Shown piece by piece: positions 25,935-56,796 of a DNA stretch of 64,000 bases. Position 1 is the stretch's first letter. Every line of letters starts with the position of its first letter. Under the pieces are notes generated by a model, which was not told where the DNA came from, did no database searches, and saw only the letters and a program-made list of their open reading frames with translations. The position numbers and the translations under genes are program-made. Origin of the DNA: an uncultured Oleiphilus sp. (GTDB taxonomy: Bacteria; Pseudomonadota; Gammaproteobacteria; Pseudomonadales; Oleiphilaceae); NCBI GenBank assembly GCA_913020495.1, contig CAJWBJ010000001.1:36910-100909 (forward strand), given 5' to 3'.

Positions 25935-26750
25935 CTAACGAGCTTGAAGATATTGGATCAATTTAGTTAGCGCCTCAACAAGTTCCCTGACAACTAAATC
26001 GTCATGTTCGATCATAATCCACATGAGATATGTATTCGCTGGATGAAAAATAGAACAAGAAAATTCACGCTTTGAGCACTCATATCTTAAAAAAGGATCT
26101 AAACCATGAACATCAATTTTACTGGTAGTTAGAGAAGGAAAACCATCTTCATATTTTTTCTCTTGCAAACTCAATTGACCCTCAACGACTGAAATCGAAT
26201 AAACTAAACCAGAACGCGCATTGGTTTTTTTTACTCTTGAGCCCGTATAAGCGTGCACAGATAACAAACTATTTATCTGCATCACCAAGGCATTCACAGG
26301 GTCATTAGTTAAGTATAAGGTTTGAAGTGATTTAATATAACTATCTCGCTGATCACCAGTGATGACGGAGCTTTTTTCTATATCCGGCGACAGCTCAGAT
26401 ACCTGAATAGACCGCTGATCATCTAACAAAGTCATTAGCTTAAGTGCTTCTATATAGTACTTGCCTTTATTACTAACCAATACAACATAATGTTCGAGAT
26501 TTTTTTCAGCAACTAAAAAGTGACTAAGCTGGAAATTAACCAAGCCATTGAAATAAAAGAAGTCCTCAGGTCGCTTTATCTCTAACGCTTCTAGCCCTTT
26601 AAGCTGCTCATGCGCGTTATTCCAATCCCCTTTGAGGGCAGATGACTCAATCGCAAGCATCAAGCGAATCGCTTCATGCTCAACAGGTAGGTTTGTTGCA
26701 AACACACTCGCACTGCTGACGAGTAGATAAAAAATAAATATTTTAACCAT
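25935..26750 (-). CDS. Hypothetical secreted protein
   Basis: Signal peptide (IFIFYLLVSSASVFA); 271 aa; no domain recognised. Confidence 0.6.
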   Translation of the reverse strand: MVKIFIFYLLVSSASVFATNLPVEHEAIRLMLAIESSALKGDWNNAHEQLKGLEALEIKRPEDFFYFNGLVNFQLSHFLVAEKNLEHYVVLVSNKGKYYIEALKLMTLLDDQRSIQVSELSPDIEKSSVITGDQRDSYIKSLQTLYLTNDPVNALVMQINSLLSVHAYTGSRVKKTNARSGLVYSISVVEGQLSLQEKKYEDGFPSLTTSKIDVHGLDPFLRYECSKREFSCSIFHPANTYLMWIMIEHDDLVVRELVEALTKLIQYLQAR

Positions 26751-26775: not shown

Positions 26776-27306
26776 TCAGGACACACAAACAAGCTTTGCC
26801 TCATCAAGCATCGCATGAACAACTTTATCTGACATAATACTTTCATCTATTTCACCCGAAGATGTTTTGGAGGAAGGCATCACTGTAATGACAGAATCAT
26901 CTTCGTTTTCAAGGCTATTTTCGAATGAGCAATTATCTGCCACCACATCAGACCTTTCATCAAAGCTGAGTACATTTGAATTTTCTTTCTTATCCGGAAT
27001 AATCGCTGCAGTTAACTTTGGAGCATCGATTGCATCAATTTTATAGGCATCTATGTTGGCAACAGTTTCATGGTTTGTTTCCATAAAAAACTCACCAATA
27101 TAGTCATTGAGTATCGTATCTGAGGCGCTAAAAGGTTTTTCGGCTACCTGACGCGGAAGAGGAGCAACAACTGGAGTTACGACATTAGGAACTTGAGCCG
27201 CTTGATAAAAATCTCTGTAGCACCGATGCACTTGAAAAGCAGTCAATAAGACTAGAAGCGCAGTCGCCACTTCAAGAACATGAACAAACGTATTTATGAA
27301 CATCAT
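26776..27306 (-). CDS. Hypothetical single-pass membrane protein (paralogue-like to 56263..56796)
   Basis: LEVATALLVLLTAFQVHRCY TM segment; TILNDYIGEFF and DDSVITVMPS motifs shared with the 56263 ORF. Confidence 0.65.
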   Translation of the reverse strand: MMFINTFVHVLEVATALLVLLTAFQVHRCYRDFYQAAQVPNVVTPVVAPLPRQVAEKPFSASDTILNDYIGEFFMETNHETVANIDAYKIDAIDAPKLTAAIIPDKKENSNVLSFDERSDVVADNCSFENSLENEDDSVITVMPSSKTSSGEIDESIMSDKVVHAMLDEAKLVCVS

Positions 27307-27587: not shown

Positions 27588-28877
27588 TCACTTGCAATTA
27601 TTTTCTGACAAGACTGTTTCTTGCTTATCAGGTGAAGAAAAAACATCTAGACGTTCCAGTTCAATATCTGAATGAATAGGATCCAACACTGGCATTGATT
27701 TAGTAATTTTATTGGAAATTTTACTAAAGCGATCGACCTTCCCATGCAAGCCCTGCTGACCAGAAAGCGCAGTTACAGCGCTATTATATTGTTTATTAGC
27801 GGTCAATAATGTGTTGCCAAGTTTTTGCATGCGATCGGCTAACAAGCAAACCTGATTATATACTTCGCCCGCTCGCTCACTAATTTCCTTCGCTTCGACA
27901 TTACTTCTCTCGACCATCCATAAATTAGCCACCGTTCTTAGAATCGGCAATAGTGTGGTATGAGAAACCAAAACCACACTTTTTTGATACGCATAATCAT
28001 ATAAGCCCTTGTTGTGTCGCATCGCTTCTATGTAAGCAGGCTCAATCGGCATAAACATCAAAACAAAGCCTGGGCTATGCATACCAATTAAATTGCTATA
28101 GTCCTTTAGCGCGAGGCTATCAATATGATTTTTAACCGCTGTCACATGATTATCTAACGCAAGATTAAGCGCCTCATCACTTGTCGCAGCAATAGCCACA
28201 TCATAATCGACCAGTGAAACCTTACTATCAATTACGATATGCTTTTGGTCCGGAAGGTTCACGACAAAGTCTGGAAAGTTATTTTTCCCATGTTCATCTT
28301 TGAAATGTGCCTGACTTTCATAATGGTCACCTTTAACTAAGCCAGCCAGTTGAAGCGTTTTCTCTAACTGGACTTCCCCCCAGCCGCCAACCTTCTTTTT
28401 ATCCCCTTTGAGAGCTTCAGTCAGGTTCTTGGCATCACTCGTCATTTCCTGATTAAGCTTTCTAAGTTGTTCCAGCTCTTTTCTTAAGCTTCCTGCAGAC
28501 TCATGGTTCTCCTTTTGAATTCCGTCTACGCGCTGCCTAAAATCTGAAATTTGCTCGCGAAAGGGTTTCAACAAATTTTCTAGGGAGCTCTGACTTGTTT
28601 GTGTGAAGGTTTTGCCTTTCTCTTCGAATATTCGGTTGGCTAAAATTTCAAACTCTTTTTCCAGAATTTTCTTTTGGTCTTCAAAAAGTGCCAGCTGCTT
28701 TTGGTGCTGTAGGTTTCTTTCCGATAATAAAACATTGAGTTCATGAGCCTCCAAAGTCCGACTAAACAAGTCGGATTGAAGGTTTTTTATTTTGCTACGC
28801 TGCCATAATAGCAATGACACGAATAGAATAAGACCAAGTAAGTACAACCCACCCCACTGATATGTCGATAAAATCAT
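27588..28877 (-). CDS. rmuC: DNA recombination protein RmuC homologue
   Basis: N-terminal TM, coiled coil, GGWGEVQLEKTLQLAGL, FPDFVVNLPDQKHIVIDSKVSL, FVLMFMPIEPAYIEAMR. Confidence 0.94.
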   Translation of the reverse strand: MILSTYQWGGLYLLGLILFVSLLLWQRSKIKNLQSDLFSRTLEAHELNVLLSERNLQHQKQLALFEDQKKILEKEFEILANRIFEEKGKTFTQTSQSSLENLLKPFREQISDFRQRVDGIQKENHESAGSLRKELEQLRKLNQEMTSDAKNLTEALKGDKKKVGGWGEVQLEKTLQLAGLVKGDHYESQAHFKDEHGKNNFPDFVVNLPDQKHIVIDSKVSLVDYDVAIAATSDEALNLALDNHVTAVKNHIDSLALKDYSNLIGMHSPGFVLMFMPIEPAYIEAMRHNKGLYDYAYQKSVVLVSHTTLLPILRTVANLWMVERSNVEAKEISERAGEVYNQVCLLADRMQKLGNTLLTANKQYNSAVTALSGQQGLHGKVDRFSKISNKITKSMPVLDPIHSDIELERLDVFSSPDKQETVLSENNCK

Positions 28878-29096: not shown

Positions 29097-31643
29097 ATGA
29101 TGAAGGCCACATCAAAATCATTATGGCTTGTTTTACTAAGCTTGGCGCTTTCTGCATGTAATGGAGGCGGTTCATCAAGTAAAACAACCGTTGTCACACC
29201 AAGCAACACTCGGCCTGTTGCTCATGCCGGAAGTGATATCACTGTCATTGAAAAACAACTAACGACCCTGAATGGCACGCTAAGCTATGATGAAGATGGC
29301 GACACAATATTTTATGAATGGCGGCAAACGAGTGGCCCCGCAGTAGCGCTTAGCTCTGAGTCAGACGACACACCCAGCTTTATTGCGCCAGAAGGAGAAA
29401 AAACACTTAACTACCAACTTGTTACTAATGATGGTATTGATATTTCTATCGCGGATACAGTTACTGTAACCGTTATCCAGGAAAGCACACCAGTCCCAAA
29501 CCCAAACCCATCCACTAACAATGCCCCACTAGCTGATGCAGGTAATGATAGAACTGTTTCAACTGAACATCTTATTACCTTAGATGGCACTCAAAGTAGC
29601 GACCCCGAAAATGATGACTTAACTTATTTATGGACACAAGTCAGCGGTACAAACGTCACCTTAAATTTTAATACCATTGCAGCACCTAGCTTAACTACTC
29701 CTGACACAAACGGAGAACTAATTTTCGAGCTTGTTGTAAATGATGGGCAGCTTAATTCACCTCCTTCAACGGTGAGCATTTCAGTCGACTCATCAGTACA
29801 GAATCAAGTTCCCGTCGCACATGCCGGCAATGATCAAACCGTCAATGGCAATGACACCATAACATTAGATGGCAGCCAAAGTCAGGATCTGGACGGTGAC
29901 ACGCTCAGCTATTTATGGCAGCAAACCAACGGAGAAGTCGTCACATTAAGTAATGAACTAACTTCGCAGCCCAGCTTTATAGCACCTGAATCTGGCGGAA
30001 CATTTACATTTGAATTAACCGTAAATGATGGCAAGATCGACTCCTCGATAGACGATGTAAACATAGAGGTAACGGCCATTGACCCGCTTCTAATCGCCAA
30101 TGCAGGTGAGGATCAAACCGTTAGCAAAAACGTTTCTGTCACCCTTAGTGGAGTCGATAGCATCGAACCCAATGGTTTAAACTTAGATTACTTCTGGAAA
30201 CAAACAGGCGGCCCCAGCGTTATACTAAGCTCAACCTCCGCAATTAACCCTAGCTTTACTAGCCCTAGCATTGATAACACCACGAGTGAGCTCATCCTCA
30301 ATTTCTCTTTGGTTGTCAGCAATGGGGTAAATAACTCGTCTGCAGACACCGTTATGGTAACCGTTAATAATACGAATACCGCTCCCACAGCTAATGCCGG
30401 AGAGAATCAAACGGTCAATGTGAATGCTAACGTCACACTCAACGGTAACGACAGCCATGACCCTGAAAATGACCAACTTAGTTATTTATGGCAGCAAACA
30501 AGCGGCCCTACAGTAGAGCTTAGCGCCCCTACAGAGAGCGCCCCTAGTTTTGTAGCACCTGAAAATGGCGCTACTCTAAATTTCACACTCATTGTAAATG
30601 ATGGTGAGTTAGACTCCGCCACTGATTTTATCGCGATTACGGTTGAAGAAGTTAACCACCCTCCAGTTGCTAATGCTGGTGTTGATCGGTTTGTAGGCAG
30701 CCTTTCAGTTGTAGCGCTAAAAGGGATTAATAGCTATGACCCTGATGGCGATGACATTAGCTATCAATGGACTCAAGTCAGCGGCCCAAACGCCATTTTA
30801 AGTAATACCACAATTGCCAATCCGGTATTTCCTGCAGACACGGATGGTCACTTAGTCTTTTCACTCATTGTTTCTGATGGAGAGCTAGTTTCCACAGAAG
30901 ATTTGATCAATGTGACAGTTGGACCAATTCCAGTAACCAATACTAAGGTTAATGGAACGGGTATCACTTGGGGTGCAAATTACCCCACTGGAAACAACGT
31001 CGACTGCACAGGCGAGGCTATTGAACAGCAAGACTGCTCATTAGGCCGAGAACAAACCCATAATGATGATAGCGATGGCCGTGCAGGTTTCAGTTATACA
31101 AAAATTAATAACGATGGAACAGTCATCGATAGTACTGAAATTGAATGGGACTGCGTACAAGATAATGTCACCGGACTGATGTGGGAAGTTAAAAATGGTG
31201 GCAATGATATTATTGGAGACGAGGGCATTACTGATGCCGATGACCGCTTTAGCTGGTACAACAATGATGCCAGTAGTAATGGTGGCGATGTAGGGTTTGA
31301 AGATAGCGGAGGCGATATTTGTCTTGGCTACGACGAAGAAGATAGCTCAACCTTTTGCAATACCCAAAACTTTACTACTCGTATCAATAACCATGCACTT
31401 TGCGGATATGCTGACTGGCGAATGCCCACTCGTAAAGAGCTGCTTACCTTAATTGACTATGGACAAAACAAACCAATGATTGATAGCGACTACTTTCCAT
31501 CCAGCGGTGAGTTTGTTTGGTCAGGAACACCTTTAGCACTGGAATCCAGTAGCGCTTGGGGTGTTTACTTTGATTATGGCAATTCTTTCAGTATTGACCG
31601 ACGAAATACCCGGCAAGTACGTCTTGTGCGTGCCGGCTATTAA
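29097..31643 (+). CDS. PKD/Ig-like repeat lipoprotein with C-terminal Lcl (DUF1566) domain
   Basis: Lipobox LALSACNGG; six repeats with PVAxAGxDxTV...DPDGDxLxYxWxQxSGP; C-terminal GLMWE...DWRMPTRKELLTLID...RQVRLVRAGY. Confidence 0.9.
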   Translation: MMKATSKSLWLVLLSLALSACNGGGSSSKTTVVTPSNTRPVAHAGSDITVIEKQLTTLNGTLSYDEDGDTIFYEWRQTSGPAVALSSESDDTPSFIAPEGEKTLNYQLVTNDGIDISIADTVTVTVIQESTPVPNPNPSTNNAPLADAGNDRTVSTEHLITLDGTQSSDPENDDLTYLWTQVSGTNVTLNFNTIAAPSLTTPDTNGELIFELVVNDGQLNSPPSTVSISVDSSVQNQVPVAHAGNDQTVNGNDTITLDGSQSQDLDGDTLSYLWQQTNGEVVTLSNELTSQPSFIAPESGGTFTFELTVNDGKIDSSIDDVNIEVTAIDPLLIANAGEDQTVSKNVSVTLSGVDSIEPNGLNLDYFWKQTGGPSVILSSTSAINPSFTSPSIDNTTSELILNFSLVVSNGVNNSSADTVMVTVNNTNTAPTANAGENQTVNVNANVTLNGNDSHDPENDQLSYLWQQTSGPTVELSAPTESAPSFVAPENGATLNFTLIVNDGELDSATDFIAITVEEVNHPPVANAGVDRFVGSLSVVALKGINSYDPDGDDISYQWTQVSGPNAILSNTTIANPVFPADTDGHLVFSLIVSDGELVSTEDLINVTVGPIPVTNTKVNGTGITWGANYPTGNNVDCTGEAIEQQDCSLGREQTHNDDSDGRAGFSYTKINNDGTVIDSTEIEWDCVQDNVTGLMWEVKNGGNDIIGDEGITDADDRFSWYNNDASSNGGDVGFEDSGGDICLGYDEEDSSTFCNTQNFTTRINNHALCGYADWRMPTRKELLTLIDYGQNKPMIDSDYFPSSGEFVWSGTPLALESSSAWGVYFDYGNSFSIDRRNTRQVRLVRAGY
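29208..30921 (+). repeat. Six tandem PKD-like repeats (protein level)
   Basis: Repeat starts: TRPVAHAGSDITV, NAPLADAGNDRTV, VPVAHAGNDQTV, PLLIANAGEDQTV, APTANAGENQTV, PPVANAGVDRFV. Confidence 0.85.
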
Positions 31644-31645
31644 TC

Positions 31646-32239
31646 TTGAAAGTAACAATGACAGACATCATGGTAAAGACTATGGAAATAACATCTAAAC
31701 AAAATGCGATAAAACAGCGAGTCAATACGACAGTGATACTATTATCACTTAGCGGCTTACCCTTCCATGCCTCCGCCCAAGACTGCCACAGTGATACAAT
31801 GGCTGAAACAACGCCGAGTACACAATATGTCGTTCATGGTGACGGTACCATCACCGACACCACAACAGCGTTAATGTGGAAACAATGTGTTGAAGGCTTA
31901 AGCGGACCAGATTGTACTAGTGGAATTACTGAGCTCCTTACATGGACAGGCGCACTTCAAACAGCGACTAACACCAATACTAGTGGAGGGTTTGCAGGTT
32001 ACGGAGATTGGCGCGTACCCAATGTCGCTGAACTGGTTTCATTAGTTGAAGAGCAATGCACTAACCCATCCATCAACGAAACGGTATTCCCTAATACCGC
32101 AAATAAATTCATTTGGACCTCATCACCCGACTTTAATAATGACATCGGAACATGGAGCGTTGATTTTAATGTCGGTACGACTGCCACTTTACAAAGAGAT
32201 TTTTCTTATCGGGTTCGTTTAGTACGCAGTGTTCAGTAA
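31646..32239 (+). CDS. Lcl (DUF1566) domain secreted protein
   Basis: TTALMWKQCVEG, GYGDWRVPNVAELVSLVEEQ, FIWTSSPD, RVRLVRSVQ; ATG at 31658 or later is an alternative start. Confidence 0.82.
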   Translation: MKVTMTDIMVKTMEITSKQNAIKQRVNTTVILLSLSGLPFHASAQDCHSDTMAETTPSTQYVVHGDGTITDTTTALMWKQCVEGLSGPDCTSGITELLTWTGALQTATNTNTSGGFAGYGDWRVPNVAELVSLVEEQCTNPSINETVFPNTANKFIWTSSPDFNNDIGTWSVDFNVGTTATLQRDFSYRVRLVRSVQ

Positions 32240-56262: not shown

Positions 56263-56796
56263 TTGAATACAATTTTAGTCACATCATTAGAAGCTATCTA
56301 CTCCTTCTTAGTTATCGTTACGCTATTCCAAATTAGCAAACATTACGTCCTGTGCTCTGTGTCTAGCCTGAAAACAAAACAAAGGCATAAACGAAGGCAT
56401 CCAAAATTTCAAACCTCTCGACGCGAGACTCATTCAAATCGCCAAGTTCAAAATAAACCTCCACTTGATTACTATTCTTATAGCCTTCCAGAGCCTGAAA
56501 TTTCGATTTCTTTTGGTCATGACCCTGCTTGCTATACCAAAGGAACACCTGAATTCAAACAAACTACACCATCACAAACCGGACTAATTTTAAATAATTA
56601 TATTGACGACTTTTTTACTCCATCACCTTCAAAAGAAATGCAAAACATCACGACACCAACATGTCAGAATTACCATAATGACTCACCTGCCAACGATGAA
56701 TTTATAACTGTTATTGAGCCAGATTTTGATCCTATCAACTGCCCATCACAAAATGGATCGATCACAGCAATGAAACCAAATACAGAATTTTCTTGA
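56263..56796 (+). CDS. Hypothetical single-pass membrane protein (paralogue-like to 26776..27306)
   Basis: LEAIYSFLVIVTLFQISKHY TM segment, LILNNYIDDFF and DEFITVIEPD motifs. Confidence 0.65.
   Translation: MNTILVTSLEAIYSFLVIVTLFQISKHYVLCSVSSLKTKQRHKRRHPKFQTSRRETHSNRQVQNKPPLDYYSYSLPEPEISISFGHDPACYTKGTPEFKQTTPSQTGLILNNYIDDFFTPSPSKEMQNITTPTCQNYHNDSPANDEFITVIEPDFDPINCPSQNGSITAMKPNTEFS

Follow-up and report, generated by a model that had tools for sequence, protein, structure and literature searches.

Two open reading frames of the window, the whole 64,000-nucleotide stretch of Oleiphilus DNA analyzed here, encode members of a genuine, unnamed and fast-evolving protein family that, as far as sequence searches indicate, is restricted to the Oleiphilaceae. 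We refer to this family as X. Its members carry one transmembrane (TM) segment and a short central motif resembling one at the N-terminus of the chemotaxis protein ParP, and we tentatively read them as membrane-tethered docking-peptide adaptors for which ParC-type binding is the leading candidate.

Two related proteins in the window

A preliminary description had singled out the two proteins, copy A (P0001) and copy D (P0002), as a two-copy membrane-protein family sharing three motifs. Both reading frames, the first of them on the minus strand, and all three quoted motifs in the order given are indeed present (Table 1). By itself the pair is borderline evidence of relationship, because direct BLASTP aligns no more than the second motif (ILNDYIGEFF), at E = 0.001, and the whole-sequence Smith-Waterman score was reached by 25 of 2000 shuffles. 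Family profiles settle the matter. A profile built without copy A recovered it at E 8.9e-19, one built without copy D recovered that protein at E 1.7e-7 through both its TM and its motif segment, and leave-one-out profiles of the N-terminal and central segments regained each omitted member or group with an E-value no higher than 1.7e-7; the relationship is therefore beyond chance. For the start of copy D only GTG and TTG codons are candidates; no ATG lies in frame ahead of its TM segment.

Both copies are thus real, but "two-copy" understates the family: the genome that contains the window (188 contigs) has at least three. The third, copy C, is a 72-aa protein (G000:C2:51655; E 1.3e-7 from copy A) that reads MIPSILIHSVEALTILLVLLAIFRIYKHY...NAVLNDYIGNFF and ends, at its stop, in VLNDYIGNFF.

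Table 1. Positions in the window of the two X proteins, their conserved segments and the genes flanking copy A
Feature	Position	Strand	Remarks
X protein copy A, 176 aa	26776..27306	minus	ATG start; N-terminal TM helix, disordered linkers, central YIGEFF helix, C-terminal helix
Copy A TM segment (residues 3-30)	27217..27300	minus	Invariant Glu12
Copy A central candidate docking motif ILNDYIGEFF (residues 65-74)	27085..27114	minus	Within predicted helix 63-75
Copy A acidic-[IV]xV motif DDSVITVMPS (residues 136-145)	26872..26901	minus	Oleiphilus only
Copy A C-terminal helix motif MSDKVVHAMLDEAKLV (residues 158-173)	26788..26835	minus	Conserved in Oleiphilus and genus g7 orthologues
X protein copy D, 177 aa	56263..56796	plus	TTG start; start uncertain
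Copy D TM segment (residues 1-28)	56263..56346	plus	
Copy D candidate docking motif ILNNYIDDFF (residues 109-118)	56587..56616	plus	
Copy D acidic-ITV motif DEFITVIEPD (residues 145-154)	56695..56724	plus	
Secreted TPR-like protein	25935..26750	minus	Gene 25 bp downstream of copy A
RmuC family protein	27588..28877	minus	Upstream of copy A, 281 bp away

Range and conserved motifs of the X family

A search of 163 Oleiphilaceae genomes yielded 19 X proteins in 13 genomes and five genera, with 1-3 copies per genome: five genomes of Oleiphilus, three of g7, two each of g4 and g15, and one of g8, which has two copies. Orthologues of copy A are present in four further Oleiphilus species. Across 392 genomes of the order, the full-length profile found no new members and the core profile gave two weak matches only, both in long proteins, so that no clear member appeared outside the Oleiphilaceae and the family looks lineage-restricted. 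The earlier statement that X belongs to no named family is upheld by the lack of any match in Pfam, NCBIfam, PHROGs or the PDB, the hits of individual members to PHROGs and Pfam being at noise level; likewise, no homologue was found on plasmids and a motif search of the literature returned nothing relevant. A Phage_int_SAM_3 hit in the linker/motif region of copy D (E 0.001, below cut-off) was rejected, being absent from its relatives. Profile libraries have overlooked the family because only about 45 residues, of up to 300, are conserved.

X proteins range from 69 to 316 aa. Two of their features are invariant or almost so: a Glu near the beginning of the TM helix, in most cases with a His three residues before it, and the central motif [IVA][LV]xxY[IV][GD]x[FLY][FLM]. 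These two features recur in homologues from all five genera, whereas the third motif shared by the window pair, the acidic-[IV]xV motif, is confined to Oleiphilus, where each of the six long X proteins has it, copy D among them. A fourth conserved motif had been overlooked: the C-terminal MSDKVVxAMLxEAxLV, common to the Oleiphilus copy-A orthologues and those of g7 (ISSKVIDAMMAEADxVCAS). Several X proteins (copy C, L098, L161, L087 and L142) end at the central motif or a few residues past it, so sequence downstream is not needed for its conservation. In five Oleiphilus genomes a degenerate DNA pattern for the motif found 31 matches, as against 17 with a reversed control, and the X family itself accounts for essentially all of the surplus.

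Architecture and topology

All 18 X members tested have 0-1 Lys/Arg ahead of the TM segment and 1-5 within the 15 residues behind it, which by the positive-inside rule places the N-terminus outside and the C-terminus inside. The two window proteins combine this charge pattern with an N-terminal TM segment bearing the invariant Glu and with YI[GD]x[FL][FLM], the features by which X is defined. The AlphaFold model of copy A (15 sequences) has a mean pLDDT of 65, so only its local helicity is meaningful: helix 2-37 (pLDDT about 95), helix 63-75 with the YIGEFF motif (about 60) and helix 160-174 with the C-terminal motif (about 89), separated by predicted disorder. The tail is thus probably cytoplasmic and mostly disordered, as charge distribution and structure prediction suggest; if so, the peptide acts as a membrane-displayed docking motif.

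On this reading an X protein is a small single-pass inner-membrane tether. Sequence comparison shows the order of its parts: one TM helix with an invariant Glu, then a linker that varies, then the amphipathic peptide ([IVA][LV]xxYI[GD]x[FL][FLM]), which is conserved, and finally, in the lineage linked to rmuC and TPR, a C-terminal helix that is likewise conserved. The original picture of a membrane-anchored protein whose short candidate docking motifs are strung on linkers without conservation is backed by the conservation pattern, the charge topology and the model. As architecture the adaptor reading is sound, but the partnership with kinase, phosphatase and FHA proteins that had been attached to it lacks support. 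It could be objected that the X genes are decaying, functionless reading frames with the motif likeness left over, since the linkers diverge very fast and copy D has a weak TTG start and an altered C-terminus. We regard this as very unlikely, given that the TM Glu and the YI motif are kept across genera and that several members stop exactly past the motif.

Gene neighborhoods

In both the window and G001, copy A adjoins intact genes for kinase, PP2C and FHA proteins, and the preliminary description accordingly tied it to them. The X proteins would on that account serve the kinase/PP2C/FHA locus by recruiting the FHA protein or the kinase to the membrane. This is very improbable. At the X loci of G002 and G004, where the locus alone was inspected, kinase and FHA genes are absent and a degenerate-looking PP2C-like gene is all that is left (L014:5940-6728 and L110:10463-11158). 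At the G003 locus, what comes after the TPR gene is a set of flagellar regulators with fliE/F/G in place of the kinase cluster, the g7 neighbors are DUF1631-like/GGDEF/EAL and TPR genes, and copies B, C and D are located elsewhere. X outlives each neighbor, and the kinase/FHA link is therefore not a conserved feature; the signaling locus itself appears to be eroding within the genus.

The X proteins might instead assist one of the products encoded beside copy A, the secreted TPR-like protein or RmuC. The gene order is rmuC-X-TPR in four Oleiphilus genomes and recQ-rmuC-(DUF1631-like)GGDEF/EAL-X-TPR in g7, where two of the neighbors, from reading their sequences, are presumably recQ and DUF1631. 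That said, the TPR gene occurs widely across the order, and the RmuC gene beside copy A is part of a conserved rmuC-TPR locus that in Marinobacter, which belongs to the same family set as Oleiphilus, is directly adjacent without X. G004, which is 99% complete, keeps X with no TPR gene in the genome and no rmuC at the locus, and other X copies have neither neighbor. The TPR protein, moreover, probably has an N-terminal signal peptide, which would put it on the opposite side of the membrane from X. A helper role is accordingly very doubtful. RmuC also recalls the Shield phage defense system, which consists of RmuC (ShdA) and the accessory proteins ShdB-E (PMC10270631). A Shield or other RmuC-linked defense was rejected: no kinase is mentioned among the Shield components, RmuC and TPR form a conserved pair in Marinobacter, and PADLOC gave no match for X or the TPR protein.

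Two further observations concern gene context. Immediately upstream of the type-B X genes of two Oleiphilus species (L098:1246-1521 and L087:1165-1536) is a gene for a response-regulator/HPt hybrid kinase. In the window, positions 29097-32239 hold a large putative lipoprotein (848 aa) that contains repeats; the reading frame after it has a similar C-terminal segment.

Likeness to the N-terminal motif of ParP

In G022, a protein encoded in a parC-parP chemotaxis cluster matched the X core profile weakly (E 0.07); it reads NDAINSYIGDLL, and the gene after it encodes a ParP-like CheW-domain protein that begins NPQVAVQDYLDDLL. An [AI]xxxYLDDLL-type motif stands at the N-terminus of all 30 ParP homologues read (21 distinct versions). 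With a matrix made only from the ParP N-termini, the highest-scoring site coincided exactly with the X motif in 16 of 18 X proteins and was off-site in the other two; the reverse matrix, made from X, picked out the N-terminal motif in 28 of 30 ParP proteins. When the columns of the ParP matrix were permuted, keeping the hydrophobic and acidic content, 3 of 5000 matrices equaled the site count and none of 5000 the summed score, figures that describe the likeness and are not a pre-planned test because the ParP lead arose during the search. X proteins score about -1 to 13 bits with the ParP matrix, as against 15-30 for ParP itself, and the preferred residues differ, X favoring I-[GD]-x-F-F and ParP L-D-[DE]-L-L.

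The genome of the window has one such cluster, parC-auxiliary-parP-cheW-DUF2802, on a contig other than the window's. Its auxiliary protein begins ...DELLNDYLLDVFGG and reads ELLNDYLLDVF. Auxiliary genes between parC and parP (L193:2595-3047 and L165:3926-4414) encode small proteins with a ParP-type motif near the N-terminus and no CheW or other Pfam match, and such a protein may be a second ParC ligand.

In Vibrio, the N-terminus of ParP is the ParC-interaction domain (PMC5706961). The literature assigns binding to that domain, and by analogy it may come down to exactly this motif. Given the likeness, ParC, or whatever binds that segment of ParP, becomes the leading candidate partner of X, and the ParP-like motif is a better, testable lead than a kinase or FHA partner. 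The X peptide would bind the same type of receptor as the ParP N-terminal motif, namely the polar ParA-like ATPase ParC, and X would then offer ParC a point of attachment at the membrane, or else take part in polar array positioning as an additional cargo or a competitor.

Other receptors and related systems

The same tethered-peptide architecture could serve a different Oleiphilaceae protein as receptor, the likeness to ParP then being convergent helix grammar. The FF and I-[GD] preference typical of X is kept across most of the five genera in differing neighborhoods, the family is lineage-restricted, and no X gene was seen near parC or parP, while ParP is found in many genera that lack X. 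Against convergence, the resemblance to ParP and to the auxiliary protein is specific to column order and goes beyond composition. We consider this account quite possible, and overall lean slightly toward a receptor other than ParC.

Binding to a CheY-like receiver domain has also been considered. The peptides by which FliM (EIDALL) and CheZ (DVDDLLSSLGF) bind CheY have the same hydrophobic-[DG]-x-hydrophobic-hydrophobic core as X, and a receiver/HPt hybrid kinase precedes the type-B X genes. Unlike X, FliM and CheZ are not membrane proteins and have no invariant Tyr. The missing Tyr of CheZ makes such binding less likely, and with its peptide at only 5.9 bits in the ParP matrix we think it improbable. 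Two other resemblances were set aside: that of NDYIGGFF to a PIP box, since bacteria are not known to have PCNA, and that of a G002 MMPL-family transporter (L083:1480-2982), whose C-terminal tail ends in the X-like motif KDYIDSFFKETRST, possibly by chance, and which was not counted because of its poor ParP-matrix score (-2.3).

X belongs to neither of the known systems that it most recalls, having no CheW domain, no DUF2802 and no gene cluster in common with them. ParP has the same motif pattern (AxxxYLDDLL) beside a long unconserved linker, but it is a soluble protein with a CheW/AIF domain encoded in the parC cluster, whereas X has a TM helix, no folded domain and FF over LL. Neither window protein matched CheW (ParP of the same genome does, at 3.5e-15), and in the neighborhoods inspected X lies outside the parC/cheW cluster. 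The DUF2802 polar flagellum determinant FipA has a plan like that of X, with a short periplasmic N-terminus, a single TM segment and cytoplasmic docking to a polar NTPase (PMC11620751), in its case FlhF. FipA, however, is widespread and binds through a folded DUF2802 domain, for which X gave no match (the FipA-like protein of the same genome matches at 4.9e-21).

Similar to X in its membrane segment is a second unnamed family of about 200 aa, family Y (L163:1362-1937 on G000:C145, with homologues L155-L160, L164, L128-L131, L133 and L135). Its TM helix with an invariant Glu is of the X type and matches the X core profile down to E 2.3e-6, but it leads into a well-predicted helical domain (mean pLDDT 87) where X has a linker and candidate docking motif. 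Family Y mostly adjoins a GGDEF/EAL gene and a conserved small gene (MDYTESLRGVLVRKINKAE...) across the Oleiphilaceae, g12 included. It has no match in Pfam, nor any significant fold match in the PDB.

Implications

ParA/MinD-type ATPases sort their cargo via adaptor proteins. How ParC is retained at the pole, and which proteins besides ParP use its peptide site, are poorly known. The X proteins may be new membrane anchors for the chemotaxis-array machinery. A more specific version, which we consider rather unlikely, is that they are lineage-specific membrane anchors for ParC that present a ParP-type peptide on a disordered tether, several of them competing with the array-positioning system or extending it, with family Y as a second arm. 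The X family also exemplifies the protein families that profile libraries fail to catch. If true, a membrane-tethered family of ParP-like peptides would offer a simple, testable handle on ParC in ten residues.
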